Origin: Prevotella sp. | GTDB taxonomy: Bacteria > Bacteroidota > Bacteroidia > Bacteroidales > Bacteroidaceae | Length of the DNA stretch: 48,930 nucleotides | Direction: 5' to 3' | NCBI GenBank assembly: GCA_017458125.1 | Contig: JAFTGB010000008.1 | Coordinates: 1-48,930 of the forward strand | In this document: positions 12,006 to 26,962 of the stretch, piece after piece | Numbering within the stretch: position 1 is the stretch's first letter | Layout: each line of letters opens with the position of its first letter | The notes under the pieces: generated by a model | Database searches by the model: none | The model's input: the letters and a program-made list of their open reading frames with translations, nothing else | Told to the model about the DNA's origin: nothing | Translations under genes and position numbers: made by a program

Positions 12006-12006
12006 T

Positions 12007-13362
12007 TTATCTTCTCAGTATTTCCACTATACGCGCCATCTGGTTGGGGATGCGGATGGTCTGCGGACATTTCGACAGACACTCCTCGCAGTCCACGCAG
12101 CTGCGCGCCCACTTCTCGGTGTCGGGCAGCGCCTTGCGCAGTCCGTCCTGGAACTGCTTCTTGCGCGCTGCGTAGTTGGCGTCCTGTTTGTCGGGCAGCG
12201 GCAGTATATGCTCGTTGACAGCCTCGTTGTAATAAGCGAAGTTGCCGGGGATATCCACGCCGTAGGGGCACGGCATGCAGTAGGCACAGGTGGTACAAGG
12301 TATGGTGGGGAACCCGGCCATCTGGTCGGCAATCTGGGCCAGCAGCTTGTTCTCGGCCTCCGTACAGGGGTCTAACGGCGAGAAAGTCTGCACGTTGTCC
12401 TCTAAGTGTTCCATCTGGTTCATGCCGCTCAGCGTAGTCAGAATGTTGGGGTATGAGCCTACCCAGCGGAACGCCCACCGTGCCGTGCTATGGTCGGGGT
12501 GCACGGCTTTGAGCTGCTCTTCCAGCTCCTTGGCCATGCGTCCGAAGGCACCGCCACGCAGAGGTTCCATGATGACGCACTGCACTCCGGTCTTCAGACA
12601 CTTGTTATACAGGTATTCGGCGTCGGCGTCCACCCTGCGTCCCGTCTTCAGCGACGCATGGCGCCAGTCCAGGAAGTTCATCTGTATCTGCACGAAGTCC
12701 CAGTGGTACTCGTCGTTGTGGTCCAGCAGGTAGTCGAAGGGACGTATGTCGCCGTGGTACGAGAAGCCCAGATGCTTGATGCGTCCGGCCTCGCGCTCCT
12801 TGAGCAGGAAGTCCAACACGCCGTTGTCGAAGAAGCGGCCGCGCAGCGTTTCCATGCCCCCGCCGCCGATGCTGTGCAGCAGGTAGTAGTCTATGTAGTC
12901 CACTTTCAGCCGCTCGAACGACTGTTCGTACAGCCGTTTCGACTCGTCGAACGTCCACAGGCGTTGGTTCTGGTTCGACATCTTGGTGGCCACGTAGTAT
13001 TTGTCGCGCGGGTGACGGCTCAGGGCGTTTCCCGTGAGCACCTCCGACTGACCGCCCATATACATCGGTGCCGTGTCGAAGTAGTTCACGCCGTGGCTGA
13101 TGGCGTAGTCCACCAGACGGTTCACCTCTTCCTGGTCTCTCGGCAGGCGCATCATGCCGAAGCCCAGCAGCGAGATGTGCTCGCCCGTGCCGTGCTGCAC
13201 GCGGTAGGTCATGCGGTTGGCCGCCGGCTGCGCCTTCGTCTCGTCCTGCGCCAGCGTGCGCAACGGACCCAGCACGCTCATGGCCATGGCTGCGCCCGCG
13301 CCCACGCCCAACCGTTGCAGAAACTGGCGACGGCTCATGTCGGTCTGTCTTTTCTCCCTCAT
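12007..13362 (-). CDS. Tat-exported aldo/keto reductase with ferredoxin-like tail
   Basis: 451 residues from ATG 13362; an upstream TTG frame to 13413 is rejected because it runs through the promoter, and ATG 13338 (MSRRQFLQ) is an alternative. Twin-arginine signal 'SRRQFLQRLG' plus hydrophobic segment means folded export, consistent with a cofactor. The (beta/alpha)8 aldo/keto reductase domain has the tetrad D96, Y101 ('YFDTAPMY'), K127, H163 ('DYYLLHS'). The C-terminus has two 4Fe-4S-type motifs: C356-C359-C362-C365 and C422-C425-C428-C432 followed by Pro. This matches the ferredoxin-type AKR group common in Bacteroidales and likely couples reduction to electron transfer at the membrane. 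Substrate unknown. First gene of the operon with the ATP-grasp and GH43 genes. Confidence 0.88.
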   Translation of the reverse strand: MREKRQTDMSRRQFLQRLGVGAGAAMAMSVLGPLRTLAQDETKAQPAANRMTYRVQHGTGEHISLLGFGMMRLPRDQEEVNRLVDYAISHGVNYFDTAPMYMGGQSEVLTGNALSRHPRDKYYVATKMSNQNQRLWTFDESKRLYEQSFERLKVDYIDYYLLHSIGGGGMETLRGRFFDNGVLDFLLKEREAGRIKHLGFSYHGDIRPFDYLLDHNDEYHWDFVQIQMNFLDWRHASLKTGRRVDADAEYLYNKCLKTGVQCVIMEPLRGGAFGRMAKELEEQLKAVHPDHSTARWAFRWVGSYPNILTTLSGMNQMEHLEDNVQTFSPLDPCTEAENKLLAQIADQMAGFPTIPCTTCAYCMPCPYGVDIPGNFAYYNEAVNEHILPLPDKQDANYAARKKQFQDGLRKALPDTEKWARSCVDCEECLSKCPQTIRIPNQMARIVEILRR

Positions 13363-13400
13363 CTTTCGTTCCTGGTTTGTTACCTTATCGTTCTCGGTGA

Positions 13401-13408
13401 CAAAAGTA
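13401..13408 (-). promoter_or_regulatory. Aldo/keto reductase promoter -7 box TACTTTTG
   Basis: Minus-strand TACTTTTG (13408 to 13401) fits TAnnTTTG exactly and lies 38 bases before the chosen ATG at 13362. No clean TTTG was seen at the 19-20 base spacing, so only the -7 element is claimed. Confidence 0.5.
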
Positions 13409-13496
13409 CACAAAATTTTCGAGATTACTGCCCTGACGCCATAAAATTTCTAAAATTCTTGTCAAAAGCGACGCCGGACCTTGCCAAACAGCGCCC

Positions 13497-13641
13497 GCAG
13501 TCTTGACATTTATCAGCGACGGCGTTGCAATTTAAATTAAATTGCTGAGCAAATTAAATTAAATTGGTGAGCAATTTAAATTAAATTGGTGCGCAATTTA
13601 AATTAAATTGCAAAACGCCCGGTGCTGTTTGTCAAGACTGC
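13497..13641. repeat. 12-bp inverted repeat enclosing the 22-bp tandem array
   Basis: GCAGTCTTGACA (13497-13508) and TGTCAAGACTGC (13630-13641) are perfect inverted repeats. They bracket the four-unit tandem array, and further in GCGTTGCAATTT faces AAATTGCAAAACGC, so the whole 145-base block could fold as one large nested hairpin or cruciform. Confidence 0.7.
13527..13614. repeat. Four tandem 22-bp repeats (GCAATTTAAATTAAATTGsTGA type)
   Basis: Units at 13527-13548, 13549-13570, 13571-13592 and 13593-13614, each starting GCAA(T/A)TTAAATTAAATTG and differing only at a few bases. Each unit core is nearly palindromic. The period of 22 bp is two helical turns. The array lies between the divergent promoters of the aldo/keto reductase operon (13401) and the phosphatase-kinase-receptor operon (13731), with no coding frame through it. 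It could be an operator array for a dimeric AT-preferring regulator; that is inference. Confidence 0.85.
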
Positions 13642-13730
13642 CGCTGCCGTCCGGCATAGCTTTCCGTCCTGTCTGTCAACTGTTTCCGTCGTTATTTAAC
13701 GCCTTCTATATAAAAAGATGTATAGCTTCG

Positions 13731-13762
13731 TTTGGTGGTTTTAAAAGATTTCATTATCTTTG
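13731..13762 (+). promoter_or_regulatory. Promoter of the six-gene signalling/receptor operon, TTTG-20-TATCTTTG
   Basis: TTTG (13731-13734), 20 bases, TATCTTTG (13755-13762): an exact match to both boxes at consensus spacing, 30 bases before the ATG at 13793. A TTG frame starting at 13760 overlaps the box and is rejected as start. Confidence 0.8.
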
Positions 13763-13792
13763 CAGCGTATTTTAAATAAAAAAAAGAACCGA

Positions 13793-14962
13793 ATGAACCC
13801 AGTAAAGATTTTAAGCGTTGACGACGAGATAGACCTCGAATTGCTCCTCACGCAGTACTTCCGCAGAAAGATACGCAAGGGCGAATATGAATTCTACTTT
13901 GCACACAACGGACTGGAAGCCCTGAGCATCCTGCTGAAGCACAAAGACATTGACATCATCCTCAGCGACATCAACATGCCCGAGATGGACGGCCTGACGC
14001 TGCTCACCAAGGTCAACGAGATGCACAACCCGGCCCTGAAATGCATCATGGTGTCGGCCTACGGCGACATGGGCAACATCCGGCAGGCCATGAACGGCGG
14101 CGCCTTCGACTTCGCCACCAAGCCCATAGACCTGGAAGACCTGGAGCGCACCATCGACAAAGCCGTGGAGCAAATCAGCTACATCAAGAACTCGATGGAA
14201 GAGCACAACCAGCTGGAGTCGCTGAAGACCGAACTGACAGTGGCCGGCGAGATACAGCAGGCCATACTGCCCTCCATATTCCCCCCATTCCCGGAGTATG
14301 ACGACGTGATGGACCTGGCGGCGCTGATGACGCCGGCCAAGAACGTGGGCGGCGACTTCTACGACTTCTTCCGCATTGACCAGGACCGCATAGGCGTGGT
14401 CATTGCCGACGTCAGCGGCAAGGGCATCCCGGCAGCCATCTTCATGGCCGTGAGCCGCACGCTCATACGCACCATCGGACTGCAGAACGTGTCGCCGGGC
14501 ACCTGCCTGACCAAGTCAAACGACCTGCTGTGCCAGGAGAGCGTCAACTCCATGTTCGTCACCGTGTTCTACGCCATATACAATGTCAAAACGGGTGAGC
14601 TGTCGTACTGCAACGGAGGACACAACGCGCCCTACATCCTGCGCGCCGACGGAAGCGTGGAGCTGCTGCTGACGAGCATCAACTGCATGGTGGGCGCCGT
14701 CGAGGGCATCAACTTCGCCAACGACACGGCGCAGCTGGGCATAGGCGACACGCTGGTGATGTTCACCGACGGCGTGAACGAGGCCTTCAACACAAGCAAC
14801 GAGGAGTACGGCGACGAGCGTCTGCAGCAGTCGCTGGCCACCCTGAAGGGCAAGAACTGCCGCGAACTGATAGAGGCCCAATTGGCCAACGTCAAGGCTT
14901 TTGCCGGCGATGCCGCCCAGAGTGACGACATCACGCTGATGGCATTGCAGAGGAGAAGCTGA
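13793..14962 (+). CDS. Receiver domain - PP2C/SpoIIE-type phosphatase
   Basis: 389 residues. The N-terminal receiver has D10-D11, phospho-acceptor D59 in 'IILSDINMPEMDG', S88 and K110 ('FATKPID'). A helical linker (~125-160) containing 'AGEIQQAILPSIFPP', typical of RsbU-like proteins, leads to a PP2C fold with the metal-binding acids in 'NVGGDFYDFF' (184-193), 'VIADVSGKGIPAA' (203-215), 'MFTDGVNEAFN' and 'QSDDITLMAL'. The expected reaction is removal of phosphate from a Ser/Thr-phosphorylated partner, classically an anti-anti-sigma (STAS) protein, switched by phosphorylation of D59. No STAS or anti-sigma gene is present in the window. First gene of a six-gene operon; the soluble kinase at 19406 is the obvious candidate phosphodonor. 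Confidence 0.93.
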   Translation: MNPVKILSVDDEIDLELLLTQYFRRKIRKGEYEFYFAHNGLEALSILLKHKDIDIILSDINMPEMDGLTLLTKVNEMHNPALKCIMVSAYGDMGNIRQAMNGGAFDFATKPIDLEDLERTIDKAVEQISYIKNSMEEHNQLESLKTELTVAGEIQQAILPSIFPPFPEYDDVMDLAALMTPAKNVGGDFYDFFRIDQDRIGVVIADVSGKGIPAAIFMAVSRTLIRTIGLQNVSPGTCLTKSNDLLCQESVNSMFVTVFYAIYNVKTGELSYCNGGHNAPYILRADGSVELLLTSINCMVGAVEGINFANDTAQLGIGDTLVMFTDGVNEAFNTSNEEYGDERLQQSLATLKGKNCRELIEAQLANVKAFAGDAAQSDDITLMALQRRS

Positions 14963-15006
14963 GCGTTTAAGAGGCAAGAAGTTAAAGACTGAAAAACGAT
15001 TTTCGA

Positions 15007-16569
15007 ATGAAGAAGACAACGGCCATAGTCTCAGTAGCCGCAGTTGCGGCACTGGCGGCAGGCATCGGACTATACACCCTCTACCACCAAGAGCAGGAGA
15101 AGGTGAAAGAGTTAGAGACGCAGCTGAGCGAACTCAGCAAGCGCGAGAAGGAGTCTGCCGTCATGCAGAGCGTCAACGCCCAGATGGAGCAGATAGCCGA
15201 CCAGGAGCGCAAAATCAGCGACGAGCAGCGCGAGAAGGCCGAGCAGCAGACACTCATAGCCAACGCCGAGCGCGAAAAGGCAGAGACCGAGGAGCGCAAG
15301 GCGCGCGAGTCGGAGCACAAAGCACGCGAGTCGGAGCTGAAAGCCGTGGCCGCGTCGGAACTGGCTGAGCAACAGCGCGCCATTGCCGAGCAACAGCGCG
15401 CCCAGGCCGTCCACTCGCGCCAGATGGCCGACACGCTGAGCTACATCAATCTGGGGCGCACCCTGGGCAACACCGCCGTCATGCAGATGCAAGCCGACAA
15501 CCACGAGCTGGCCCAGCTGCTGGCCTACGCCGCATACTCCTTCACCGAACGCTACAGGGGCAACCTCTACCACCCCAGCGTCTACCAGGCACTGGCCCGC
15601 ACCAGCATGGGACGCCTGCAGTGGAACAAGCACAAGGGGACGGTGACCGACATGGCCTTCGTCAACAACGACCGCAACCACTTCTACTCGTGCAGCACCT
15701 ACGGCGAGCTGTTGGAGCACCGCCAGTCGGGCGGCAACCTGCAGACTGAGACCATCATACAGAACAAGAACTACGACTTCCGCGACATCTACCTTGACCA
15801 CAATAGCGGCACGCTCTACGCCGTCAGCCGCACCGGACAGCTCATCATCAAGCAGGGCAAGGACACCAAGGTCATCACCGTCAACGACATAGGCCACCTG
15901 ATGCGCATAGACCCCACCGAGAGCCAGATGCTGCTCTTCGGCGACCGCGGCGTGGCACTGGTGGACCAGCAGAGGCACGACGTCGTGCGCACGCGCACGC
16001 TGCCGTTCCGCATCGTGTCTCTTGACCGCCACGACAGCGCCGTCCTCACCTTCGACGACCAAGGACGCCAGCACCTCTTCCGCACCATCGACAAGGTGGA
16101 AAGCAGCAGCGTGCCCGTCAAGGGGCAGGTGACGTCGTTCGCCAGCTCCAAGAACACCAAGACCAGGGTCTACGGCATGAGCGACGGCACCATATACTTC
16201 GTAGACAAAAACGGCAGGACAAGCCGCCTCATCGGTCACCTCTCGCGCATCACACGAGTCAAGCTCAACGGCTGGCGCCTCTACTCGTCGAGCTACGACG
16301 GCACCATCAACCTCTGGATGACCAACACGTCGAAGATAGAACCCATGACCATCTACAGTTCCAACGGCTGGATCACCAACTTCGTCTTCGATGTCAACAA
16401 GTCCATCATCCTCACCGGAGACCAGAAGGGCAACCTGATAGAAAACTACATCTCCATACATGCCATGGTGGACCGTCTGAAGGCACGACTGAAGCGCAAC
16501 CTGACACGGGAGGAGTGGAACTACTACATCGGACCCAACGTGCCGTATGAGAAATTTGTCAACCCATAA
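15007..16569 (+). CDS. Membrane-anchored coiled-coil / WD40-like propeller protein
   Basis: 520 residues. An uncleaved-looking N-terminal anchor (~6-25) is followed by a long charged coiled coil rich in E/K/Q/R/A (~28-140, with 'REKAE', 'ARESE' and 'AEQQRA' near-repeats), then a short helical part with 'LAQLLAYAAYSFTERY', and a beta-propeller of WD40-like blades (~205-480; 'DGTINLWMTN' is the clearest). The C-terminal 'KRNLTREEWNYYIGP' resembles tails on WD40 proteins linked to signalling and peptidase modules in Bacteroidetes. No enzymatic motif. It probably acts as a scaffold at the inner membrane. It sits 44 bases after the phosphatase and 16 bases before the sensor gene. Confidence 0.75.
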   Translation: MKKTTAIVSVAAVAALAAGIGLYTLYHQEQEKVKELETQLSELSKREKESAVMQSVNAQMEQIADQERKISDEQREKAEQQTLIANAEREKAETEERKARESEHKARESELKAVAASELAEQQRAIAEQQRAQAVHSRQMADTLSYINLGRTLGNTAVMQMQADNHELAQLLAYAAYSFTERYRGNLYHPSVYQALARTSMGRLQWNKHKGTVTDMAFVNNDRNHFYSCSTYGELLEHRQSGGNLQTETIIQNKNYDFRDIYLDHNSGTLYAVSRTGQLIIKQGKDTKVITVNDIGHLMRIDPTESQMLLFGDRGVALVDQQRHDVVRTRTLPFRIVSLDRHDSAVLTFDDQGRQHLFRTIDKVESSSVPVKGQVTSFASSKNTKTRVYGMSDGTIYFVDKNGRTSRLIGHLSRITRVKLNGWRLYSSSYDGTINLWMTNTSKIEPMTIYSSNGWITNFVFDVNKSIILTGDQKGNLIENYISIHAMVDRLKARLKRNLTREEWNYYIGPNVPYEKFVNP

Positions 16570-16585
16570 CAGAAAGGAGCAAGAC

Positions 16586-19399
16586 ATGATGACGACACGT
16601 ACACTCCAACACACACTTTACAAGACGGCGGCACTGGCGCTGACGATGCTTTGCCTGCTCACGGCAAAGGCCAACGCACAGGGCGTACCCTTCATCCGCA
16701 ACTTCACGGCTGCGACCTATCAGGGCCACAACCAGAACTTCGACATCATCACGGGCGACGACGGCACCATATACGTAGCCAACTTCGAGGGACTGCTCTA
16801 CTACGACCAGGCCCGCTGGCACATGCTGCACACGTCGGGCATCACCCGCATCACATCCGTATTCCGCGACAGCAAGGGCAGAATATGGACGGGAGGCTAC
16901 AACTACTTCGGCTTCGTGGAAAAGCGCGAAAACGGCAGGCTGCACCTGAAAAGCCTCAACTACCAGAAGAACGCTGACAACGAGGTGCTATGGATATGGG
17001 AGCGAGAGGGCCGCATCTGCTTCTTAGCCAGCGACGACAATATCTATCAGGTCAACAACGACAAAATAACGCTGGCCCCAGGCATGAGCCTGCCCAAGCA
17101 GGGAAAGTCGGTGCTCAGCACGACGCACAACATCAACCAGGTGCAGAAGCTGGACTTCGGACTGAAAGCACTGGCCACCACGGGACAGGGCATCATCATC
17201 ACCAACGCCGAGGACCAGCAGCTGATGAACATCACCATTGACAACGGACTGTGCTCTAACAACGTCAGCCACATCACCTACGACGGACACGGCGTGCTCT
17301 GGGGAGCCACCGACAACGGCATCTTCGCCATGGCCGTACCCTCGGTATACTCACGCCTGACCACCCACGAGGGACTGCAAGGCGAAGTGCTGGCCATCGA
17401 GAAACTGGACGGACAGGTGTTCGTGGGCACGCTGAGCGGACTCTACCGCGTAAAAGACCACCACTGCACACCCGTCGGCGGCATAAGCTACGCCTGCTGG
17501 CAACTGACACGCCAGGGCAACCGACTGCTGGCCGCCACGGCAAACGGTGTCTACACCATCACGGCCGACGGAGCCACCAAGCAGCTGACAACTACCGGAG
17601 CGCTCTCCATACTGGTGGTAGCCGACGGCATCTACATAGGCGAGATGGACGGCCTCTATCACATCAACGCACAAGGCAGAAAGGTCAAGCTGCACGAGAT
17701 GGAGAAACCCACCCGCATAGTGCGCGACGCGCAGGGCTACATCTGGGTGCAGAACCTGTACGGCAACGTGTGGTGCAACCACGGCGACAACCGCTTCGAG
17801 CCTTACAAGAAGGACGGACGCGACAACGAGGCCATGACGCTGCTCTGCACGAACGGCCGTGTTCAGACCATCTCCGTCAGCGACACCAAGCCCTTCCCCT
17901 ACCCGCTCTACTACTATGCCGAACCCAACGGACTGCTCTGGCTGACCGACAACAAGGGCAAGCACCTCTACGCTTTCAAGAACGATGCAAGACAGGCAGC
18001 ACAGTCGGAAACGGTCATACCGCTGCAAGACTACTCCATGCGCGCCATGATGCGCGACGGCAACCATCTGTGGATAGGCGGCGACAGGGGCATCGTGGTG
18101 CTCAACAGCGACTACAAAGACCCCATGCAGCATGCGAAGCCGAAACTGCTGATACGCACCATACGCTTAGGCAACGACAGCGTCCTGTGGGGCGGACACG
18201 GACAGCTGCCCCAGCAGCTGCCCCGACAAGACGGAAAGGAGCGCCACCTGAGCATCGACTTCGCACTGAACTACCCGGGCATCATAGGAAAGGTGTACTA
18301 CCGTTACCGCATCAACGGAGGACAGTGGAGCACATGGGACGTGGACACCAACGCCGAGCTGTTCAACCAGCCCTACGGCGAGAACGTCTTCGAGGTACAG
18401 GCCCGCGACGCCTGGGGACGGCAATCGGAGATAGTCAGGATAGAATTCAGCTATGCCTACCCGTGGTACATGCAGTGGTACATGCTGACGCTCTACATGC
18501 TGCTGGCCATACTCGCCATACTGGGCATCAGCCAGTGGCGACTGAACCGGGTGGAGAAAGAAAAGAACCGGCTGGAGACCATCGTCCGCGAACGTACCGC
18601 CGAGGTGGTGCGCCTGGAGAAGATGGCCACCACGGGCAAGCTGACACAAGGTCTGATAGACCGCATTCTGAACCCGCTGAACTACATCAACAACTTCGCC
18701 AAGCTGTCGCAAGGACTCATCAACGACGTCACGGCCAACATTGAGGACGAGAAAGAACACATGGACGCCGACAACTACGAGGACACCGCCGACATCCTGG
18801 ACATGCTGAAGGGCAACCTGCAGAAGGTCAGCGAGCACGGAGCCAGCACGACACGCATACTGAAGGCCATGGAGGAGATGATGAAGGACCGCTCGGGCGG
18901 CATCGTCAGGATGAACCTCACCACCCTGCTGCACCAGAACGAGGAGATGGTGCGCAAATACTACGAGAAGGAAATCGGCGAGCACCACATACACTGCGTC
19001 TTCCAACTGCCGCAGAACGACATCTTCGTCAACGGCAACGCAGAGCAGCTCAGCAAGACGTTCATGAGCATGCTGGGCAACGCCGTCTATGCCGTCAGCA
19101 AAAAAACGCAACGCCCGCACGACGCCGACTACGTACCGGAGATAGCCATGAAGGCCACCACCATGAACGGCGGGAAACAGATTGTGCTGCACATACACGA
19201 CAACGGCACGGGCATCGAGAAGACCATCATCAGCAAAGTCTTCGACCCCTTCTTCACGACCAAGACAACGGCTGAGGCCACGGGCATAGGACTCTACCTC
19301 TGTCAGGAGATAGTACAGAACTGCGGAGGCACCATCAGCGTGGACTCGGAGAAGAACGTGTTTACTGAATTTACCATTACTTTACCAACTATTGCATAA
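16586..19399 (+). CDS. Propeller-type sensor with histidine-less kinase core
   Basis: 937 residues from ATG 16586, which has the only clear Shine-Dalgarno here (AAAGGAG, 16574-16579); the longer frame from 16547 overlaps the upstream gene. Signal peptide (to ~A31), two-component-regulator propeller repeats (~40-510), Y_Y_Y-like sandwich (~555-622), one span (~629-650), then a kinase core. The dimerisation helix reads 'LTQGLIDRILNPLNYINNF': compared with 'LTAGIAHEIQNPLNFIINF' in the next gene, D692 and R693 replace the catalytic His and Glu. The ATP-binding domain looks intact ('MLGNAVYAV', 'DNGTGIEK', 'FDPFFTTK', 'ATGIGLYLC'). It cannot autophosphorylate in the usual way but may bind ATP and either phosphorylate or gate the downstream kinase. 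Ligand unknown. Confidence 0.88.
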   Translation: MMTTRTLQHTLYKTAALALTMLCLLTAKANAQGVPFIRNFTAATYQGHNQNFDIITGDDGTIYVANFEGLLYYDQARWHMLHTSGITRITSVFRDSKGRIWTGGYNYFGFVEKRENGRLHLKSLNYQKNADNEVLWIWEREGRICFLASDDNIYQVNNDKITLAPGMSLPKQGKSVLSTTHNINQVQKLDFGLKALATTGQGIIITNAEDQQLMNITIDNGLCSNNVSHITYDGHGVLWGATDNGIFAMAVPSVYSRLTTHEGLQGEVLAIEKLDGQVFVGTLSGLYRVKDHHCTPVGGISYACWQLTRQGNRLLAATANGVYTITADGATKQLTTTGALSILVVADGIYIGEMDGLYHINAQGRKVKLHEMEKPTRIVRDAQGYIWVQNLYGNVWCNHGDNRFEPYKKDGRDNEAMTLLCTNGRVQTISVSDTKPFPYPLYYYAEPNGLLWLTDNKGKHLYAFKNDARQAAQSETVIPLQDYSMRAMMRDGNHLWIGGDRGIVVLNSDYKDPMQHAKPKLLIRTIRLGNDSVLWGGHGQLPQQLPRQDGKERHLSIDFALNYPGIIGKVYYRYRINGGQWSTWDVDTNAELFNQPYGENVFEVQARDAWGRQSEIVRIEFSYAYPWYMQWYMLTLYMLLAILAILGISQWRLNRVEKEKNRLETIVRERTAEVVRLEKMATTGKLTQGLIDRILNPLNYINNFAKLSQGLINDVTANIEDEKEHMDADNYEDTADILDMLKGNLQKVSEHGASTTRILKAMEEMMKDRSGGIVRMNLTTLLHQNEEMVRKYYEKEIGEHHIHCVFQLPQNDIFVNGNAEQLSKTFMSMLGNAVYAVSKKTQRPHDADYVPEIAMKATTMNGGKQIVLHIHDNGTGIEKTIISKVFDPFFTTKTTAEATGIGLYLCQEIVQNCGGTISVDSEKNVFTEFTITLPTIA

Positions 19400-19405
19400 A
19401 GACCT

Positions 19406-20230
19406 ATGGAAAAACAGATTGAAACCTTAAAACTTCAGCTGAAGGAGCAGGAGAAACTGGCCGCTCTGGGAATACTCACTGCGGGCATAGCCCATGAAAT
19501 ACAGAACCCCCTGAACTTCATCATCAACTTCAGCAAACTGTCGACCAAGCTGTTGGACGACCTGACCGACATCGTCAACGACAACAAGGACAAGCTGGAC
19601 GCCGCAGACTGCGAGGAACTGAACGACATCGTGGCTGACCTGGAGGGCAACATGGACAAGATAGTCGAACACGGCGAGCGCGCCATCAGCATCATTCAGG
19701 GCATACTGCTCGTATCGCGAGGCAAGGAGGACGAATATCTGCCCTCTGACGTCAACCGCATAGTCAAGGAATACGTCTGGCTCTCCTACCACGCACTGAG
19801 GGCCAACCACAGGGGCTTCAACGTCAGCATACACGAGCAGTACCAGGAGGGGCTGCCCCAGATGATGGTCATCCCACAGGACCTGAGCCGCGCCGTGCTC
19901 AACCTGATGAACAACGCCTGCTACACCGTGTGGGACAAGGCACAGACGGCCAGCGACGACTACCAGCCTACCATCGACGTGAGTGTAACCTCCGACGGGC
20001 AACAGGTAACCATCACCATAGCCGACAACGGTAAAGGCATGACGAAGGAGGTGCAGCAGCACCTGTTCGACAACTTCTACACCACCAAGCCTGTCGGACA
20101 AGGCACCGGACTGGGCATGGGCATCACGCGCGACATCATCGAGAACAAGCACAACGGCACGCTGCGCTACGAAACGGAAGAAGGTGTGGGCACGCGCTTC
20201 ATCATGACCATACCCATCAGGACGAAATGA
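19406..20230 (+). CDS. Soluble histidine kinase, no sensor domain
   Basis: 274 residues, no signal or membrane span. A short coiled start is followed by the His box 'GIAHEIQNPLNFI' (H30) and an HATPase domain with N box 'VLNLMNNACYTV', 'ADNGKGM', 'FDNFYTTK' and 'GTGLGMGI'. All elements for autophosphorylation are there. It starts 6 bases after the propeller sensor, whose kinase core it closely resembles (both share 'LNPLNY/QNPLNF' helices and a ~45-residue acidic insert between the dimerisation helices), so it probably arose by duplication and works with it as a heterodimer. It overlaps the following receptor gene by ATGA. Likely partner: receiver of the phosphatase at 13793. Confidence 0.93.
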   Translation: MEKQIETLKLQLKEQEKLAALGILTAGIAHEIQNPLNFIINFSKLSTKLLDDLTDIVNDNKDKLDAADCEELNDIVADLEGNMDKIVEHGERAISIIQGILLVSRGKEDEYLPSDVNRIVKEYVWLSYHALRANHRGFNVSIHEQYQEGLPQMMVIPQDLSRAVLNLMNNACYTVWDKAQTASDDYQPTIDVSVTSDGQQVTITIADNGKGMTKEVQQHLFDNFYTTKPVGQGTGLGMGITRDIIENKHNGTLRYETEEGVGTRFIMTIPIRTK

Positions 20231-22632
20231 GCAGAACCCTACACCTTATTTATATTATAGTATTACTGCTGCTGGCGTGTCCCAACGGGACACAGGCGCA
20301 GAAAGCCACGCACGAAGACAATGCGCAGGTGCTGGAGCATGCCGAAGAGGACTACCGGATAGGCCGATTCGACAGGGTTCTTGACGTGCTCGGAAGTCGT
20401 ATGCACGGCTTCCAGCAGAGCGACCGGCAGAAAGCGCTGCGTCTGGTAGCCCTCTGCTACCTGGCACAGGACAACGAGGCAAAGGCTGAGGAGTACGCAC
20501 GGCAGTTAGTGGAGGCCAACAACTACTATGCCGGCGTGGACGACCCGATACGCTTCCAGGAAATGGTGGAACGGCTCAGGGGCGGACGCGCCGTCACCGT
20601 CACCACGGCATCGAGCGTGGCCGAGGGCATAGAGGAGGCTCCCGTGCCGGTGACCATCATCACCGCCGAGATGATAGAGAACCTGGGGTACAACAAAAAC
20701 CTCAGCCACATACTGGCCGCATACGTACCGGGCATGACGGACGTGATGGCAGAATGGGAGGAGAACATCGCCATGCACGGAGCCTTCGCGCGCGACCAGG
20801 AGCTCATACTCGTCATGGAGAACGGGCACCGACTGAACAACCACACCTACAACAGCTGCTCATTGGACTACTCACTCAGCACGGAGAAAATAGACCGCAT
20901 AGAGGTGCTGCGCGGACCGGCGTCGTCGCTCTACGGCAACGTGGCCCTGTCGGCCGTGGTCAACATCATCACCAAACAGGGGGCCGACGTCAACGGCATC
21001 AAGGCCAAGTACGGCTACGGCACGTTCAAGACGCACAAGGCAGACATCACCATGGGCACCAGTTTCTTAGACGCCGACATCTTCGCATGGGGCTCGTTCT
21101 ACCAAAGCGACGGCGACGAACGCTCCATCAGCTCGGACATGATGGAGAAATTCCTGGCCAGATACTACATCACCCCGGCTGCCGGGCAGTACGCCCATGT
21201 GGAACGCTACCGCGACAAGCCGTGCTACGACATCGGCATGACTTTCCGCTTCAAGGACTTCCGCCTGTCACTGTCGCGCAAGAACTCACGCTCCGTCAAG
21301 CAGTTCACGGACAGCTGGGGCATCTATAACTACGACCGCTATGCCTTCTGCAACGGCATCAAGCCGGGCAGCAACAGGGTCAACAACCACATACACATGG
21401 ACTACAGCCACCAGTTAGGCTCTGTCACGCTCAACGCCACAGCCTACGGCGACTGGCACGACATGAGCTACTACAACGCCTCCAGCGCGGAGATGCCGGA
21501 CCAGGAAGCACTGCCCGAAGAAGAGCGTGCCTTCTCCATCGGCACGTTCAGCAAACGTGACATCGAGGAATACACCCTCGGGGGCAACCTGCATGCCAGC
21601 ACCACCTACAAACTGGGGAGCATGACGGGCAACCTGTTAGTGGGCACACAGTTTGAGCACTTCACACTGAGCGATTACCAATACTTCGGCGGCAACGATT
21701 ACTCGATAGTCTACGAACAAGACCTGCAACCCGATGACACCTACTCCATCAAGGGAAAGGAGAATAGCGTGTCGTTCTATGTTCAGGACAAGCACACGTT
21801 CACACGCCACCTCATACTGAATGCCGGTCTGCGCTACGACATCAAGCACCGCCGACTGATGGACAATATCACATCATGGTCGCCCAGACTGGCACTCATC
21901 TACATGCCAAGCCAGAACTTCAGCACGAAACTCACCCTCTCACGTTCGTTCGTCGACATGGCCTACTACTACCGCAATGAAGGCAGAGTCGTCAACGAGA
22001 ACTACCTGCCGCAGTACCTCACCGCCATACAGCTGTCGGCCATGGGCAAGATACCGAACCTGCACCTGTCCTACGATGTCAACTTCTCGTACAACAGATT
22101 TAAGAATCTGTACTGCAACCACAACAGCAGCCAGAAATGGGCCAACGAGGGAACGTTCAAGAACCTGGCATTCGAGGCCAGTGTCTACTACAGCTGGCAA
22201 CGGCTCACGGCCAACCTCAACTTCTACTGGAGCCGCGTGCTTGACGCCACGTCATACTACTACAGCGAAACGGAGAACCGCGTGGCCTGCGTGCCCAACC
22301 AGACGGCCAACCTGAACGTGGGCTGGAAACTCATTGACCACGGCCGACACCAGCTCAAGCTCTACGGCAACATGCAGTACACGGGGGAGACGCTGGTGCA
22401 GACCCAAGACTTCAAGGGATATTCCGAAATAGTGAAAAATGACTATTTCATGGACCGCCGCGTCATCTTCGACGCCGGAGTGAAGTACACCTACAACAAG
22501 TTCGCGCAAATAGCACTGGAATGCGAGAACCTGCTGAACACCGACCGCTACGTCATAGGCCCGGAGTGGAACATGTATCCGGAAATGCTGCGCGGACGCA
22601 ACCTCATGGCATCGGTAGCCTTCACCTTCTGA
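20227..22632 (+). CDS. TonB-dependent outer-membrane receptor with TPR-like N-domain (copy 1)
   Basis: 801 residues with a signal peptide (to ~A24). Residues ~28-120 are helical and TPR-like ('ALRLVALCYLAQDNEAKAEE', then 'DDPIRFQEMV'), replacing the carboxypeptidase-like domain usual in this phylum. Next comes the plug ('VPVTIITAEMIENLG', 'VLRGPASSLYGNVALSAVV') and a 22-strand barrel ending in aromatic F ('ASVAFTF'). It imports or senses a ligand across the outer membrane using TonB energy. No SusD partner. Start ATG overlaps the kinase stop (ATGA). A relative follows directly. Ligand unknown; metal chelate or small peptide are as likely as sugar. Confidence 0.9.
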   Translation: MSRTLHLIYIIVLLLLACPNGTQAQKATHEDNAQVLEHAEEDYRIGRFDRVLDVLGSRMHGFQQSDRQKALRLVALCYLAQDNEAKAEEYARQLVEANNYYAGVDDPIRFQEMVERLRGGRAVTVTTASSVAEGIEEAPVPVTIITAEMIENLGYNKNLSHILAAYVPGMTDVMAEWEENIAMHGAFARDQELILVMENGHRLNNHTYNSCSLDYSLSTEKIDRIEVLRGPASSLYGNVALSAVVNIITKQGADVNGIKAKYGYGTFKTHKADITMGTSFLDADIFAWGSFYQSDGDERSISSDMMEKFLARYYITPAAGQYAHVERYRDKPCYDIGMTFRFKDFRLSLSRKNSRSVKQFTDSWGIYNYDRYAFCNGIKPGSNRVNNHIHMDYSHQLGSVTLNATAYGDWHDMSYYNASSAEMPDQEALPEEERAFSIGTFSKRDIEEYTLGGNLHASTTYKLGSMTGNLLVGTQFEHFTLSDYQYFGGNDYSIVYEQDLQPDDTYSIKGKENSVSFYVQDKHTFTRHLILNAGLRYDIKHRRLMDNITSWSPRLALIYMPSQNFSTKLTLSRSFVDMAYYYRNEGRVVNENYLPQYLTAIQLSAMGKIPNLHLSYDVNFSYNRFKNLYCNHNSSQKWANEGTFKNLAFEASVYYSWQRLTANLNFYWSRVLDATSYYYSETENRVACVPNQTANLNVGWKLIDHGRHQLKLYGNMQYTGETLVQTQDFKGYSEIVKNDYFMDRRVIFDAGVKYTYNKFAQIALECENLLNTDRYVIGPEWNMYPEMLRGRNLMASVAFTF

Positions 22633-22666
22633 ACATAACAGCAAACCATACACACACAACAATAAA

Positions 22667-25174
22667 ATGAACATACGACACTGCATACTCACAATAGCCT
22701 GCTGCACCGCGCTGACCATAAGCGCACAAGGGTCCGACGACAACTACCGCAACATCTACGACCAGGCTGAGCAACACTACGACATAGGACAGCTGGAACA
22801 GGCTGAAAAGGAACTGACCGACAACATGAAGAACTTCCCGTTCAGCATGCGCCAGGGGGCCTTGAGACTGCTGTCGCTCTGCTACATAGGCATGGACCGC
22901 GACGAAGACGCTGAAGACTGCGTGCGCATGCTGCTGGAAGAGAACCCCTACTACAGCACCTCCATGGACGACCCCCAGCGGTTCATCGACATGGTGCAGG
23001 ACATCAAGTCGGGACTGGTGGCCACCATCACCACGGCATCCAGTCAGGCTGAGTCGCTGAACGAGGTACCCGTGCCCACGACGCTGATAACGGAGCAGAT
23101 GATACGGGACTCGGGAGCGCGCAACCTGCAGGAAGTGCTGGCCATCTATGTGCCGGGCATGTATATCATAGACTGCAACGACGACATCAACATCGCCATG
23201 CGCGGCGTCTACAGCAACGGACAGGAGAAGATACTCTTCATGCTCGACGGACACCGCATGAACAGCTACTGCACCAACACGGCGGCACCGGACTTCAGCA
23301 TATCGCTGGAGAAGCTCAAACAGATAGAGGTGCTGCGCGGACCGGCATCGTCGCTCTATGGCGGCGTGGCACTGACGGCGGTGGTCAACCTCATCACCAA
23401 GCAAGGTGCTGACATCGACGGCATCAAGGTGCGCGGAGGCATAGGCAACTACGGACAGTATCACGGCGACATCATCTTCGGCAAGCGGTACTTCGACTTG
23501 GACATACTGGTCTGGGGAACACTGAACGCCATCAAAGGACAGACCTTCCATGTAAACAAGGAAAACACCGGACTGGGACTCCATGGAGGCGACGTCACCG
23601 TGGGGGGGATAGGCAGACGCCCGAGCTACGACTTCGGAGCCACCATCAAGTACAAGAACCTGATGTTCCTCTACAACACGCAGTTCTCGCAGGTGCAGGC
23701 TCCCATGACCATGACGCATACCTTCACACCATACAACATCGACAAGTACAAGACATTCTACGGCAACAGACCCAGCCACACCACGCTGACACACCATGCC
23801 GACCTGAGCTACGGGCAGCAGTTCGGACAGGTCTACCTGAAAGGTCAGGTAGCTTTCGACAACAGTGACCTGTCACACTATCAGGCCATCAGCGACATCG
23901 CGCTGCCGGGATTTGCCAGCATCCTGCCGCTGCCTGACACGTCAAAGAAAATGCTGACTGACACGACTGGCGGACTGGCTCGCTACATCAGCGGTCAGGA
24001 GCACACCATCGGTGCCAAGGTGCAGGGCGAATGGAGCTACTTGAACACAGGACTGCACAAGGGACTGCTCAGCTTTGGTGCCGAGTATAACTATTTCCAG
24101 CTGGACGACGCACGCTACGTCTTCGTCTACGACTTCGTAAACACACTGCCGGAAACCGTCAGAATCTCGGAATTAGGAAAGGGACACGAGAACAATGCCA
24201 ACGTCTATGCACAGCTGAAGCACCAGTGGGGACCCGTCATCCTCAATGCCGGACTGCGCTTCGACTACAAGGGACGCTACGACGACACCACCATCCGCGA
24301 GTTCTCACCACGTGTGGCACTCATCTATGTGCAACCCAAGTGGAACGTCAAGCTCAGCTACGCCAAAGCATTCATCGACGCTCCATATCTCTACCGCAAG
24401 ACCAACCAGTTCCTCTCCGTACTAATGAACAACATGGGACATAACGACCTGCCCCTCACGCCGGAGTCGCTGCACTCCTACCAGCTGACCTTCGGCACCA
24501 CCCAGTGGGTCAAAGGACTCGACATGGAGGTGAACGCCTTCTACAACCGCGCGCGCGACCTTATCTATATGGACATCATCGAACACTACAACATGGGCAA
24601 CTCGAACATCTTCGGAGTGGAGGTCTCGGGCAAGTACCAACACAAACGCTTTGCCGCCCACGCGTCCGCCACGTGGCAGAAGATAGCCAAGTACGAACTG
24701 TATTTCGAAAAGCTGGACCGCGCCTTCAACATGCCGCGCTTCATTGCCAAAGGCGTGCTGGCCTGGCAGGCCACCAAACAGCTCAGGCTTCACACCACCT
24801 TCAACTTCAGCACACGACAGGTGACCGACTACATCAACGTATTCACCTATCAAGAATGGTACAAGGCGTATCTCCTCTCCGAAACACTGCATGAGAAAGA
24901 GATTGCCCAAGGCCATCTCTCGCCCGAAGAACAGATGCAAATGGAGAGTGCCCGCAAAACAAGCGATGAATTAGCGGAAAAGACATACCTCCAGAAAAAC
25001 GTTCCCCCCTACTTTGTCATGGACCTCGGTGCCAACTATAACATTGGACGCCTGGAACTGAGCCTGAACGTACATAACGTGCTCAACCGTAAATACTCGC
25101 TCAGCGGTGCCTGCACGGGACTCATCCCGCAGAAGGGACGATGGTTCAGGTTTGACGTGGCATACAAATTCTAA
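22667..25174 (+). CDS. TonB-dependent outer-membrane receptor with TPR-like N-domain (copy 2)
   Basis: 835 residues, signal peptide (to ~A20), the same architecture as the preceding gene: helical TPR-like region (~25-115, 'ALRLLSLCYIGMDRDEDAED', 'DDPQRFIDMV'), plug ('VPTTLITEQMIRDSG', 'VLRGPASSLYGGVALTAVV'), barrel ending 'FDVAYKF'. The N-domain and plug are clearly related to copy 1, the barrel much less, so the pair are diverged duplicates probably binding different ligands. It follows 34 bases after copy 1 and is closed by a strong terminator, so it is the last gene of the operon. The N-domain position, in the periplasm before the plug, suits protein-protein signalling to an inner-membrane sensor. 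Confidence 0.9.
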   Translation: MNIRHCILTIACCTALTISAQGSDDNYRNIYDQAEQHYDIGQLEQAEKELTDNMKNFPFSMRQGALRLLSLCYIGMDRDEDAEDCVRMLLEENPYYSTSMDDPQRFIDMVQDIKSGLVATITTASSQAESLNEVPVPTTLITEQMIRDSGARNLQEVLAIYVPGMYIIDCNDDINIAMRGVYSNGQEKILFMLDGHRMNSYCTNTAAPDFSISLEKLKQIEVLRGPASSLYGGVALTAVVNLITKQGADIDGIKVRGGIGNYGQYHGDIIFGKRYFDLDILVWGTLNAIKGQTFHVNKENTGLGLHGGDVTVGGIGRRPSYDFGATIKYKNLMFLYNTQFSQVQAPMTMTHTFTPYNIDKYKTFYGNRPSHTTLTHHADLSYGQQFGQVYLKGQVAFDNSDLSHYQAISDIALPGFASILPLPDTSKKMLTDTTGGLARYISGQEHTIGAKVQGEWSYLNTGLHKGLLSFGAEYNYFQLDDARYVFVYDFVNTLPETVRISELGKGHENNANVYAQLKHQWGPVILNAGLRFDYKGRYDDTTIREFSPRVALIYVQPKWNVKLSYAKAFIDAPYLYRKTNQFLSVLMNNMGHNDLPLTPESLHSYQLTFGTTQWVKGLDMEVNAFYNRARDLIYMDIIEHYNMGNSNIFGVEVSGKYQHKRFAAHASATWQKIAKYELYFEKLDRAFNMPRFIAKGVLAWQATKQLRLHTTFNFSTRQVTDYINVFTYQEWYKAYLLSETLHEKEIAQGHLSPEEQMQMESARKTSDELAEKTYLQKNVPPYFVMDLGANYNIGRLELSLNVHNVLNRKYSLSGACTGLIPQKGRWFRFDVAYKF

Positions 25175-25180
25175 GACACA

Positions 25181-25211
25181 AAAAACGCTCCCAGTTTTGG
25201 GAGCGCTTTTT
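25181..25211. terminator. Convergent terminator (receptor operon / rplT)
   Basis: CGCTCCC (25186-25192) pairs with GGGAGCG (25199-25205), flanked by AAAAA on the left and TTTTT on the right, so it works for both converging transcripts. Confidence 0.85.
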
Positions 25212-25230
25212 GATTACTGCTTTACTGCTT

Positions 25231-25575
25231 TTACTTCACCTTCTCAACGATGGCCTTGAAAGCCTGGGGGTTGTTCAGGGCGAGGTCGGCGAGCACCTTG
25301 CGGTTAATCTCGATGCCGGCCTTGGCCAGCTTGCCCATGAGTGCTGAGTAGCTCATACCCTCCTGACGGGCGGCAGCGTTGATACGCTGAATCCACAGTG
25401 CACGGAAGGTGCGCTTCTTGTTCTTGCGGTCACGGTAGGCATAGGTGAGACCCTTCTCCCAAGTGTTCTTGGCTACTGTCCAAACATTCTTGCGGGCACC
25501 AAAGTAGCCGCGGGTGAGTTTAAGAATTCTTTTACGCTTAGCACGTGATGCGACGTGATTTACTGATCTTGGCAT
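25231..25575 (-). CDS. rplT: 50S ribosomal protein L20
   Basis: 114 residues, standard length. Begins '[19 protein letters not shown]', with '[15 protein letters not shown]' and '[19 protein letters not shown]', the L20 core that binds 23S rRNA early in 50S assembly. Third gene of infC-rpmI-rplT. In other bacteria L20 represses this operon; I see no L20-like leader fold that I would assert here. Confidence 0.98.
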
Positions 25576-25610
25576 AGTTTTCTTCTTTTAAATGTTCGAC
25601 AATAGGTGAA

Positions 25611-25808
25611 TTAACGGAGACACAACAGGTCACGAACCTGCTTCATGTTCGAGGTGTCAACAATGGTTGAACCCACAAGGTTGCGCTTCTGCTTCTTGGT
25701 CTTCTTAGTCAGAATGTGACTGTGGTAGGCGTGGTGTCTCTTTACCTTACCTGTTCCGGTAAACGAGAAACGCTTCTTCGCTCCGGAGTTTGTCTTTACT
25801 TTTGGCAT
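25611..25808 (-). CDS. rpmI: 50S ribosomal protein L35
   Basis: 65 residues. '[20 protein letters not shown]' and '[14 protein letters not shown]' are diagnostic. Small basic 50S protein between infC and rplT, 35 bases upstream of rplT. Confidence 0.98.
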
Positions 25809-25875
25809 TGTTTTTAAAATTTAATTTGTTATTAATTATCGGCGACTACGCATATACCTGGCGCGACGCCTTTAG

Positions 25876-25910
25876 CTATTTACGATTTAACGATTTACTA
25901 TTTACGATTT
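25876..25910. repeat. Short-word repeat TATTTACGATTTA in the infC-rpmI gap
   Basis: Within the 114-base gap the words CTATTTACGATTT, AACGATTTA and CTATTTACGATTT follow each other, the same vocabulary as in the kdgK-eda gap (5697-5760). Here too it lies between two genes of one operon. Confidence 0.55.
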
Positions 25911-25922
25911 GAGTATTGACTT

Positions 25923-26609
25923 TTACTCGCTTTCGATATTCAGCTTCTTCAGCGCATCGGCAGAGATTTTGGCATTGGCCAGCAAACCGCCGCCCTGCGG
26001 CTTCTCGTCAACTTGCTGGCGAACCGTTTCCTTTGCCTCAGCCTCGCTGGCCTCACGGTCACGGGCCTGCTGGCTCTTCTTGGCTACACCGGCCTTCTTG
26101 GGAGCCAGGTAGAGGAACATCTTCTTGCCCTCCAGAGACGGCATCGACTCCACCTTGCCATACTCCTCCAAATCGTTGGCGAAACGCAGCAACAGCACCT
26201 CGCCCTGCTCTTTGAACAGAATGGAACGTCCGCGGAAGAAGACATAGGCACGCACCTTGTTGCCTTCCTCCAGAAATTCCTTGGCATGCTTCAGCTTGAA
26301 CTGGTAGTCGTGCTCATCGGTCTGGGGACCGAAGCGTATCTCCTTGACCTCCACCTTCACCTGTTTGGCCTTCATCTCCTTCTGGCGCTTCTTCTGCTGG
26401 TAGAGGAACTTCGAGTAGTCAATGAGACGGCAGACAGGCGGGTTGGCATTCGGCGAAATCTCAACAAGGTCAACACCTTGCTCGCGGGCCATGTCCATAG
26501 CTTGGCGCGTAGGCACAACGGTGCTTCCACCATCGCCCACTATGCGCACCTCACGTACACGTATCTGCTCATTGATACGGTACTGGTTCTTCATTTTGTC
26601 GTTCTTCAT
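25923..26609 (-). CDS. infC: Translation initiation factor IF-3
   Basis: 228 residues. N-domain '[19 protein letters not shown]', linker rich in K ('[21 protein letters not shown]' region), C-domain '[20 protein letters not shown]' and '[10 protein letters not shown]'. It binds 30S and checks start codon/initiator tRNA. The protein runs ~45 residues past the usual end ('[12 protein letters not shown]') with an E/A/K/Q-rich tail, common in Bacteroidetes. ATG 26609 is taken; ATG 26594 (MKNQYRI) is equally possible. Promoter at 26635-26665. Confidence 0.96.
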
Positions 26610-26634
26610 TAACCAGTTTTATCGAAATCGGCTG

Positions 26635-26665
26635 CAAAATTACGACATTTTTCGGAAAGTACAAA
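26635..26665 (-). promoter_or_regulatory. infC operon promoter TTTG-19-TAATTTTG
   Basis: Minus strand TAATTTTG (26642 to 26635), with TTTG (26665-26662) 19 bases upstream, 25 bases before the infC ATG. Confidence 0.7.
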
Positions 26666-26734
26666 ATAAATGTGCCTGTTTTTTACCAAGATACCAAAAA
26701 ATCAAAGCTATGAGAGACGGAGCGTCACCAACCG

Positions 26735-26844
26735 ACAAAGGAAGCCGCTCCGTCCGACATAAGGAGCCGCTCCGTCCGACAAAGGAAGCCGCTCCGTCCG
26801 GGAGAGGAAACCGCTCCGTCCGATGGAGGAAACCGCTTGATAAC
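26735..26844. repeat. Tandem 22-bp repeats (ACAAAGGAAGCCGCTCCGTCCG type)
   Basis: Units at 26735-26756, 26757-26778, 26779-26800, 26801-26822 and a decayed fifth at 26823-26844. Units 1 and 3 are identical; 2 and 4 differ at the 5' half only, the core CCGCTCCGTCCG being constant. Just upstream GACGGAGCG (26716-26724) is the reverse complement of the CGCTCCGTC in every full unit. GC-rich, in an AT-rich setting, between the divergent infC and acyl-CoA ligase promoters. A 22-base period does not keep a reading frame, so it is not coding. Confidence 0.85.
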
Positions 26845-26908
26845 ATTGTTCATATAGTAATAACTTTGTTCTATTTTTCCGCTAAGTATAAAAAACTGCA
26901 CAAAAAGT

Positions 26909-26939
26909 TTTGGAATGTGCATGAAACATATTATCTTTG
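26909..26939 (+). promoter_or_regulatory. Acyl-CoA ligase promoter TTTG-19-TATCTTTG
   Basis: TTTG (26909-26912), 19 bases, TATCTTTG (26932-26939); ATG follows 23 bases later at 26963. This rules out the longer frame starting at 26915. Confidence 0.75.
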
Positions 26940-26962
26940 CACAAAATTTTGAATATTGTGCA

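Follow-up and report, generated by a model that had tools for sequence, protein, structure and literature searches.

The stretch of DNA analysed here (the window: 48,930 nucleotides, positions 1 to 48,930 of contig JAFTGB010000008.1 in the Prevotella sp. assembly GCA_017458125.1) carries an operon of six genes, named g1 to g6 in order. They fill positions 13793-25174, all on the plus strand. From g1 to g4 the intergenic gaps measure 44, 16 and 6 bases, g4 and g5 overlap by ATGA, and 34 bases lie between g5 and g6, just as an earlier note on the letters of this DNA had described them. The products are a receiver-phosphatase, an anchored WD40 protein, a propeller sensor with an altered kinase core, a soluble histidine kinase (HK) and two TonB-dependent receptors (Table 1). 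Judged by gene order in related genomes, g1-g2-g3-g4 is a distinct conserved module of Prevotella and some related bacteria, and we propose that it works within a relay across the cell envelope that would end in a STAS/RsbW partner switch. Among the 25 best NCBIfam matches of each protein, none stood above its own cut-off (the best for g1, RssB, reached 115 of 700 bits), and therefore no family name was transferred to the operon proteins.

Table 1. Features of the six-gene operon, in positions of the window (aa, amino acids)
Feature	Positions	Strand	Description	Basis
Promoter	13731..13762	+	Bacteroidales type, TTTG-N20-TAnnTTTG	Sole full match inside the operon
g1	13793..14962	+	Response-regulator receiver and SpoIIE/PP2C phosphatase, 389 aa	Pfam
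g2	15007..16569	+	Inner-membrane anchor, long helix/coil and WD40 propeller, 520 aa; predicted periplasmic	Pfam, model
g3	16586..19399	+	Reg_prop propeller sensor, transmembrane segment and kinase core with Asp for His	Pfam HATPase, no HisKA
g4	19406..20230	+	Soluble histidine kinase, His intact, 274 aa	Pfam HisKA and HATPase
g5	20227..22632	+	TonB-dependent receptor with helical N-domain, 801 aa	Pfam Plug and barrel
g6	22667..25174	+	TonB-dependent receptor with helical N-domain, 835 aa	Pfam Plug, without barrel match
Terminator	25186..25205	+	Intrinsic-terminator-like stem, then CTTTTT	Terminator scan

The single consensus promoter claimed for the operon holds as a site of the Bacteroidales type. 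A scan for E. coli-type promoters gave 5 sites where 5.5 were expected; that scan is at chance level and was not used. Six sites of the Bacteroidales type occur in the window compared with 0.48 in shuffled sequences. Of 91 g1 relatives (P. communis counted twice), 45 are preceded by the complete motif, which occurs in 1.1% of 3680 control pieces. The TAnnTTTG element is absent from positions 13763-25796. Its proposed strong terminator is the strongest among 13 terminator-like sites in the window, although their total is no more than chance would give (13 versus 13.9). The open frame of g3 begins upstream of the assigned start, at position 16547.

Conservation of the gene set was read in three samples, in which L-numbers denote loci and G-numbers genomes. 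The family sample holds 151 genomes of the same family; g2 has a match somewhere in 15 of these, the window's own included, and besides the window genome ten have a match over most of the protein (a two-piece match in four). The titled-record sample comprises 80 loci, retained out of 401 g1 relatives and all carrying the label Prevotella, Prevotellaceae or uncultured Bacteroidales, and the combined set comes to 92 loci, with P. communis included twice (L079 and L213). From other families, 15 of the 63 genomes with a g2 match were fetched. The order g1-g2-g3-g4 on one strand was found in 72 of the 80 titled loci and in 82 of the 92 loci of the combined set (nine family loci, L136 of another family and the 72 titled loci). 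In these 82, the three spacings have medians of -4, -4 and +3.5 bases. Relatives of g1, g3 and g4 adjoin g2 in all ten family genomes with a nearly complete g2, and nine of the ten have the window's order. The distinct module that the earlier note had suggested, with conservation of the neighbourhood as its check, is borne out by these counts. Likewise, no description of a system of such make-up was found in the open-licence literature, a search outside which lie most subscription papers and all bioRxiv preprints.

Five of the titled loci out of order (L042, L060, L108, L113 and L115) lie on contigs that end before the set is complete. Some observations weigh against a fixed gene set: L103 has g1-g3-g4 without g2, L097 has g1 alone and the genes are rearranged in L088 (each of these three possibly through an assembly error), and they are also rearranged in L035, from a family genome. 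The module is patchy as well, g2 being present in none of nine same-genus genomes sampled, and in the four family genomes with short, weak g2 matches none of the six genes was found in the surrounding fetched stretches (E up to 1e-5).

One TonB receptor gene belongs to the set in nine of the ten family loci with a nearly complete g2; at L026 the four signalling genes are present and no receptor match was found beside them. A receptor match lies behind g4 in 59 of the 80 titled loci, and two receptors do so only in L047 and L083, some contigs being too short to tell. Two receptors had been taken for a hallmark of the module; the comparison indicates instead that one is usual and that the second in the window is a local variant. 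Of the 14 loci with g4 and no receptor match, 12 were inspected, and 10 of them have a frame directly behind g4 that resembles, by eye, a non-ribosomal peptide synthetase (NRPS). These NRPS-like genes are at L044, L050, L079, L081, L086, L091, L092, L104, L107 and L119, the P. communis copy also being at L176:467-5797. The P. communis frame (1776 aa) has two AMP-binding, one condensation and two carrier domains, with a thioesterase match below cut-off, and a receptor gene is still present behind it.

The kinase function is divided between g3 and g4. The His-box position of g3 reads GL[IV]DRILNP, with Asp in all 87 readable frames (86 of them distinct, P. communis being present twice; three frames are cut), and the His box of g4 reads GIAHE[IV]QNPLNF, with His kept in all 83 readable frames (one is cut). 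The dead His box of the propeller protein and the live His of the separate kinase, both noticed earlier in the single sequence, are thus general. Decay or sequencing error as the cause of the missing His in g3 was rejected, as Asp stands in every readable frame. By pattern matching, 84 nearly full-length g3 frames contain no His box and have the N-box in 75, G1 in 82, the F-box in 81 and G2 in 84; among 84 g4 frames, the N-box is found in 69, G1 in 84, TTKP in 83 and G2 in 82. It follows that g3, without a phospho-accepting His, is not a canonical HK, and that g4, with the HisKA His and an ATP-binding domain, has the features of one. When the g3 kinase core was compared with the window genome, g4 was the closest protein (126 bits over 262 residues), the rest reaching 40 bits at most (28 candidates scored).

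Because these neighbouring paralogues consist of one that is always a sensor without an acceptor and one that is always an acceptor without a sensor, they look like an obligate split kinase, most simply a heterodimer, in which the sensor pseudokinase g3 would act via g4. In turn, g4 would set the phosphorylation of the g1 receiver and hence the activity of its PP2C domain, as the complete active sites and the operon order suggest. On the other hand, g3 might be a negative regulator, sequestering g4 or promoting phosphate removal from g1, with the signal freeing g4. The loss of His in every readable g3 frame would suit such a role, and there are precedents for HK-like inhibitors of a partner kinase, such as RetS acting on GacS. 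However, the ATP-binding boxes are largely conserved in g3, suggesting that catalysis or nucleotide binding still matters, and we consider negative regulation a possible, though the less probable, mode of action.

On the envelope side, g2 had been described as a membrane coiled-coil/WD40 protein. Its anchor, helix/coil and WD40 parts all stand, the WD40 repeats marginally (29.6 bits versus a Pfam cut-off of 27), with the correction that the WD40 part is predicted to be periplasmic because of the positive-inside flanks around the single transmembrane segment (TM) near the N-terminus. Net charge is higher before the TM in 75 of 85 g2 frames. In other families, g2 is matched best by the C-terminal half of proteins of about 1040 aa whose N-terminal part is an nSTAND1 NTPase (two scanned). 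Of 14 such fused relatives, a script picked up 11, and in all 11 Lys plus Arg are richer before the TM than after it. Thus g2 is homologous to the C-terminal half of the nSTAND1-TM-WD40 proteins of Bacteroidales and, like them, has proteins with the receptor N-domain encoded nearby, but it differs from them in having no NTPase domain (no PF20703 match in Pfam). A structural model of g2 (59 sequences; mean predicted local distance difference test (pLDDT) score 89.4) has helices at residues 3-65 and 79-162, a poorly modelled part at 53-82 and a propeller at 204-481, for which Foldseek returned WD40 propellers. From the TM to the cap before the propeller there are 108-123 residues in the 69 g2 frames, of 88, in which both marks are readable; at 1.5 A per residue, a rod of this length could by simple arithmetic bridge a periplasm of usual width.

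The model of g6 (53 sequences, mean pLDDT 86.9) has five helices at residues 23-117, followed by plug and barrel, with a TonB-box-like TITTAS (by eye) between this N-domain and the plug; its best Foldseek matches are FoxA and FhuA. The N-domain of g5 can be aligned with that of g6. These N-domains had been called TPR-like, and this stands as far as the five-helix fold of the model goes; Pfam gives neither a TPR match nor an STN match (E up to 0.01). The NCBIfam ligand models matched by the receptors, for hemin or siderophores, are all sub-threshold. A profile of the N-domain has a match in all 15 fetched other-family loci, or in 14 of 14 independent ones, since L136 is part of the profile, and in each of these 14 the gene of the N-domain protein adjoins that of the g2 relative. 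Eight of the 14 proteins are of TonB-receptor size (one scanned) and six are of 343-364 aa (one scanned: OMP_b-brl_2). By this comparison, the N-domain and the WD40 protein are a constant pair and the barrel varies. The six loci with the short form (L143-L146, L148 and L150) have a gene of nSTAND1-TM-WD40 size and then the 343-364-aa protein, and L144-L146 have an additional frame of 2145-2308 aa.

We suggest that signalling begins at the TonB receptor g6 (in the window also g5), where a ligand or its transport would be sensed and the helical periplasmic N-domain shifted, similar to what happens with a different domain in FecA-type signalling receptors. This N-domain would then be read by the g2 propeller on its inner-membrane-anchored rod, by the g3 propeller, or by both. 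Distance correlations over 61 loci give a weak hint in this direction, the partial r of the N-domain with the g2 propeller, the g3 propeller and the g3 kinase being 0.31-0.34 and that of the barrel 0.14-0.19. Against this, the correlation of the N-domain with the g2 coil is not above that of the barrel (0.16 versus 0.18) and the bootstrap intervals of the differences between N-domain and barrel include zero; single 97-column stretches of the barrel reach 0.37 with the g2 propeller.

A rather unlikely alternative keeps the same cytoplasmic circuit and lets the g3 propeller alone sense a periplasmic solute. On this view the receptor would serve uptake only and share the regulation of the operon, while g2 would scaffold the kinases or act as a tether in the envelope. 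Reg_prop propellers are indeed periplasmic sensors in hybrid two-component systems. In addition, an NRPS-like gene can take the place behind g4, co-variation with the signalling genes is weaker for the barrel, and at L026 no receptor match adjoins the signalling genes, all four of which are present. What speaks for a role of the receptor is that the N-domain stands beside the g2 relative in all 14 other-family loci, on proteins of two sizes, five of these loci (L142, L144 and L148-L150) showing no relatives of g1, g3 and g4 in the fetched stretch, and that P. communis has retained its receptor behind the NRPS-like gene.

The cytoplasmic end of the proposed relay is g1, and here the earlier assignment of a receiver-PP2C protein is confirmed by its Pfam domains (receiver, PF00072; SpoIIE/PP2C, PF07228, at 168.5 bits) and by its catalytic motifs. 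In the g1 relatives, the D, D and K motifs of the receiver are kept in 92 of 92 and the four acidic motifs of PP2C in 90-92 of 92 (89 distinct proteins). The only solved structures matched at E up to 1e-20 are 3eq2/3f7a. Full-length g1 is found in 11 of the 151 genomes, referred to as the module genomes, each time with at least 703 bits, the next match having 248 bits. The g1 protein probably drives an output of the partner-switch type, in which it would dephosphorylate a STAS antagonist, the STAS protein would then capture an RsbW-like kinase, and the client of this kinase would be freed.

The earlier note had set the module apart from STAS/anti-sigma partner switching, and the distribution of RsbW does not support this. 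SpoIIE proteins (E up to 1e-10) occur in 52 of the 151 genomes and RsbW-like proteins (E up to 1e-15 against the RsbW of contig C37 in the window genome) also in 52, and the two sets of genomes are identical; partner switching looks all-or-none across this sample. An RsbW without a SpoIIE within 1.5 kb on the same strand is present in 11 of 11 module genomes versus 6 of 140 others (p 8e-13), or versus 6 of 41 others when only RsbW-bearing genomes are compared (p 2e-7). With the distance set at 5 kb on either strand, the numbers are 11 of 11 and 3 of 140 (p 2e-14). In G006, G104 and G113, g1 is the sole SpoIIE protein. The complete genome of P. communis has g1 as its only strong SpoIIE (185 bits, the next 29.5) and one strong RsbW (95 bits, the next 25) with one small STAS protein alongside.

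Direct linkage was found as well. In G031 and G001, the receptor gene is followed on its strand by a STAS gene, 66 and 67 bases away, and an RsbW gene lies about 2 kb beyond that, past a transporter-like frame on the opposite strand. L136 (G205, another family) has, on a single strand, STAS, RsbW, a 186-aa frame that is DJ-1/PfpI-like by eye, g1-g2-g3-g4 and the receptor. The order at L137 (G204) is g1 relative, RsbW, STAS, STAND-WD40 gene and receptor, and at L141 (G249) g4-like, g1-like and STAS-domain frames are consecutive. A glycogen-debranching-like gene (by eye) stands beside the STAS genes of two other families (L136:13235-15639 and L149:4523-7430).

The earlier note had advised seeking a STAS/anti-sigma pair elsewhere in the genome, and such a pair was found on C37 (L174:6950-9434), where RsbW, STAS, a RelA_SpoT-type frame (Pfam) and a 196-aa frame are consecutive. 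The STAS protein has the motif SSSG and RsbW the motif LALEEAVVN; among the pieces examined, 9 of 10 match the STAS pattern and 10 of 13 the RsbW pattern. The neighbourhood RsbW-STAS-RelA_SpoT is shared by the window genome, P. communis, G443 and G070, i.e., 4 of the 14 genomes read around an RsbW away from SpoIIE (the 11 sampled ones plus G442, G443 and G444). The C37 RsbW/STAS pair supplies the likely partners of g1 in the window genome. The same genome encodes a further four SpoIIE proteins, however, along with two more RsbW/STAS sets, so that the pairing of g1 with C37 is one that we infer. The unlinked target that had been predicted would hold for the window genome if the C37 pair is the target.

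Several other points also weigh against this output. The 11 module genomes are spread over 6 genera, so that the p-values overstate independence; RsbW is away from SpoIIE in some non-module genomes too; the fetched stretches of four of the 11 module genomes (G006, G034, G038 and G124) yielded no STAS; and a further module genome, G445, fits poorly, the one standalone strong RsbW inspected there being about 3 kb from a same-strand SpoIIE. It could be, then, that g1 acts on a Ser/Thr target outside the STAS and RsbW families, as would suit those four genomes and the window itself, in which no STAS or RsbW was seen linked to the operon (positions 12000-27500, translations by eye). Such a target is made improbable by the exact match between the SpoIIE and RsbW genome sets, by the association in all 11 module genomes and by the direct linkage in G031, G001 and other families, and STAS/RsbW as the target route of g1 has strong comparative support. 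Finally, a chance or hitchhiking neighbourhood without joint function, with which the patchy occurrence might agree, is in practice already refuted by the kept order and tight spacing of the four genes, found also in L136.

Most likely, with a probability of roughly 55%, the operon is a trans-envelope relay in which the signal would pass from the receptor to the split kinase, the phosphatase and the STAS/RsbW switch, i.e., a new combination of known parts. The parts, their order, the active-site motifs, the Asp/His split and the association with RsbW away from SpoIIE can be read in the DNA; all protein contacts, the direction of control, the ligand and the client are what we infer. More speculatively, and only as a tentative extension, the operon may represent a new class of Bacteroidales signalling systems, in which TonB receptors with a helical N-domain (or other barrels, with STAND-fused relatives) are read by a WD40 rod, the pseudokinase and kinase form an obligate heterodimer, and the STAS/RsbW end acts possibly on an alarmone enzyme of the RelA/SpoT type and not on a sigma factor.

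At the cytoplasmic end, the operon resembles two known systems, RsfS-RsfR and RsbK-RsbY, in which an HK stands over a receiver-PP2C protein; RsbY is a PP2C phosphatase. As in such response-regulator phosphatases of partner switching, g1 has the receiver Asp and Lys and the metal-binding acids of PP2C, and the genome has a STAS protein of the SSG type and an RsbW-type kinase. According to the abstract on RsfS-RsfR of Mycobacterium smegmatis, the HK controls RsfR, which dephosphorylates the anti-sigma antagonist RsfB and whose phosphatase activity is lowered by phosphorylation (PMC10950880); this abstract mentions no outer-membrane receptor or WD40 rod, both of which are in the operon. In the second system, RsbK-RsbY of Bacillus cereus, an HK likewise controls its partner protein (PMC9912610). 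Unlike these systems, each with one ordinary HK and an established sigma client, the operon splits sensing and phospho-acceptor between two paralogous proteins, and its end point is a predicted STAS/RsbW switch.

At the outer membrane, the nearest likeness is FecA/FecR/FecI, in which an inner-membrane protein receives the surface signal from a TonB receptor that carries an additional periplasmic domain (PMC9249621). In the operon receptors, too, such a domain precedes the TonB box and the plug, but it is all-helical in the model and has no STN match, no FecR-type anti-sigma or extracytoplasmic function (ECF) sigma factor is among the six genes (Pfam), and the route inward would be the kinase pair plus the phosphatase. 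A term search of PMC8256260 found neither Bacteroid nor TonB. No SusD-type lipoprotein is encoded by the six genes (Pfam on these genes only), and in this respect they do not make up a SusC/SusD locus. In hybrid two-component systems, a Reg_prop sensor is fused to HK, receiver and helix-turn-helix (HTH) domain in one protein; g3 shares with them the Reg_prop propeller, one TM and the HK core but has no receiver or HTH match (Pfam), and its His is replaced by Asp. Dma2 is among the Bacteroidota proteins reported to extend through both membranes and to govern a sigma-type output. It is an anti-sigma factor with Das2 as its sigma partner, whereas g2 has no such domain (Pfam) and only a predicted inner-membrane anchor.

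Signalling from the outer membrane to the cytoplasm in gut and rumen Bacteroidales is known mainly via FecR/ECF-type and hybrid two-component routes. The module would offer a third route, with a fixed pair of split kinases, and would give partner switching in Bacteroidales an input. It also names testable partners in the complete genome of P. communis, where SpoIIE phosphatase and RsbW each have a single strong representative and there is one small STAS protein, and the RelA/SpoT-type neighbour of RsbW/STAS in four module genomes raises a new kind of output.

The interval that separates the operon promoter from the divergent gene contains a minor feature: positions 13527-13611 of the window hold 3.9 tandem copies of a 22-base AT-rich near-palindrome. 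Arrays of this unit are found at 12 further places in the genome, beside genes that are apparently unrelated, and its pattern has 72 matches on both strands with at most one mismatch, compared with 0 in the control.

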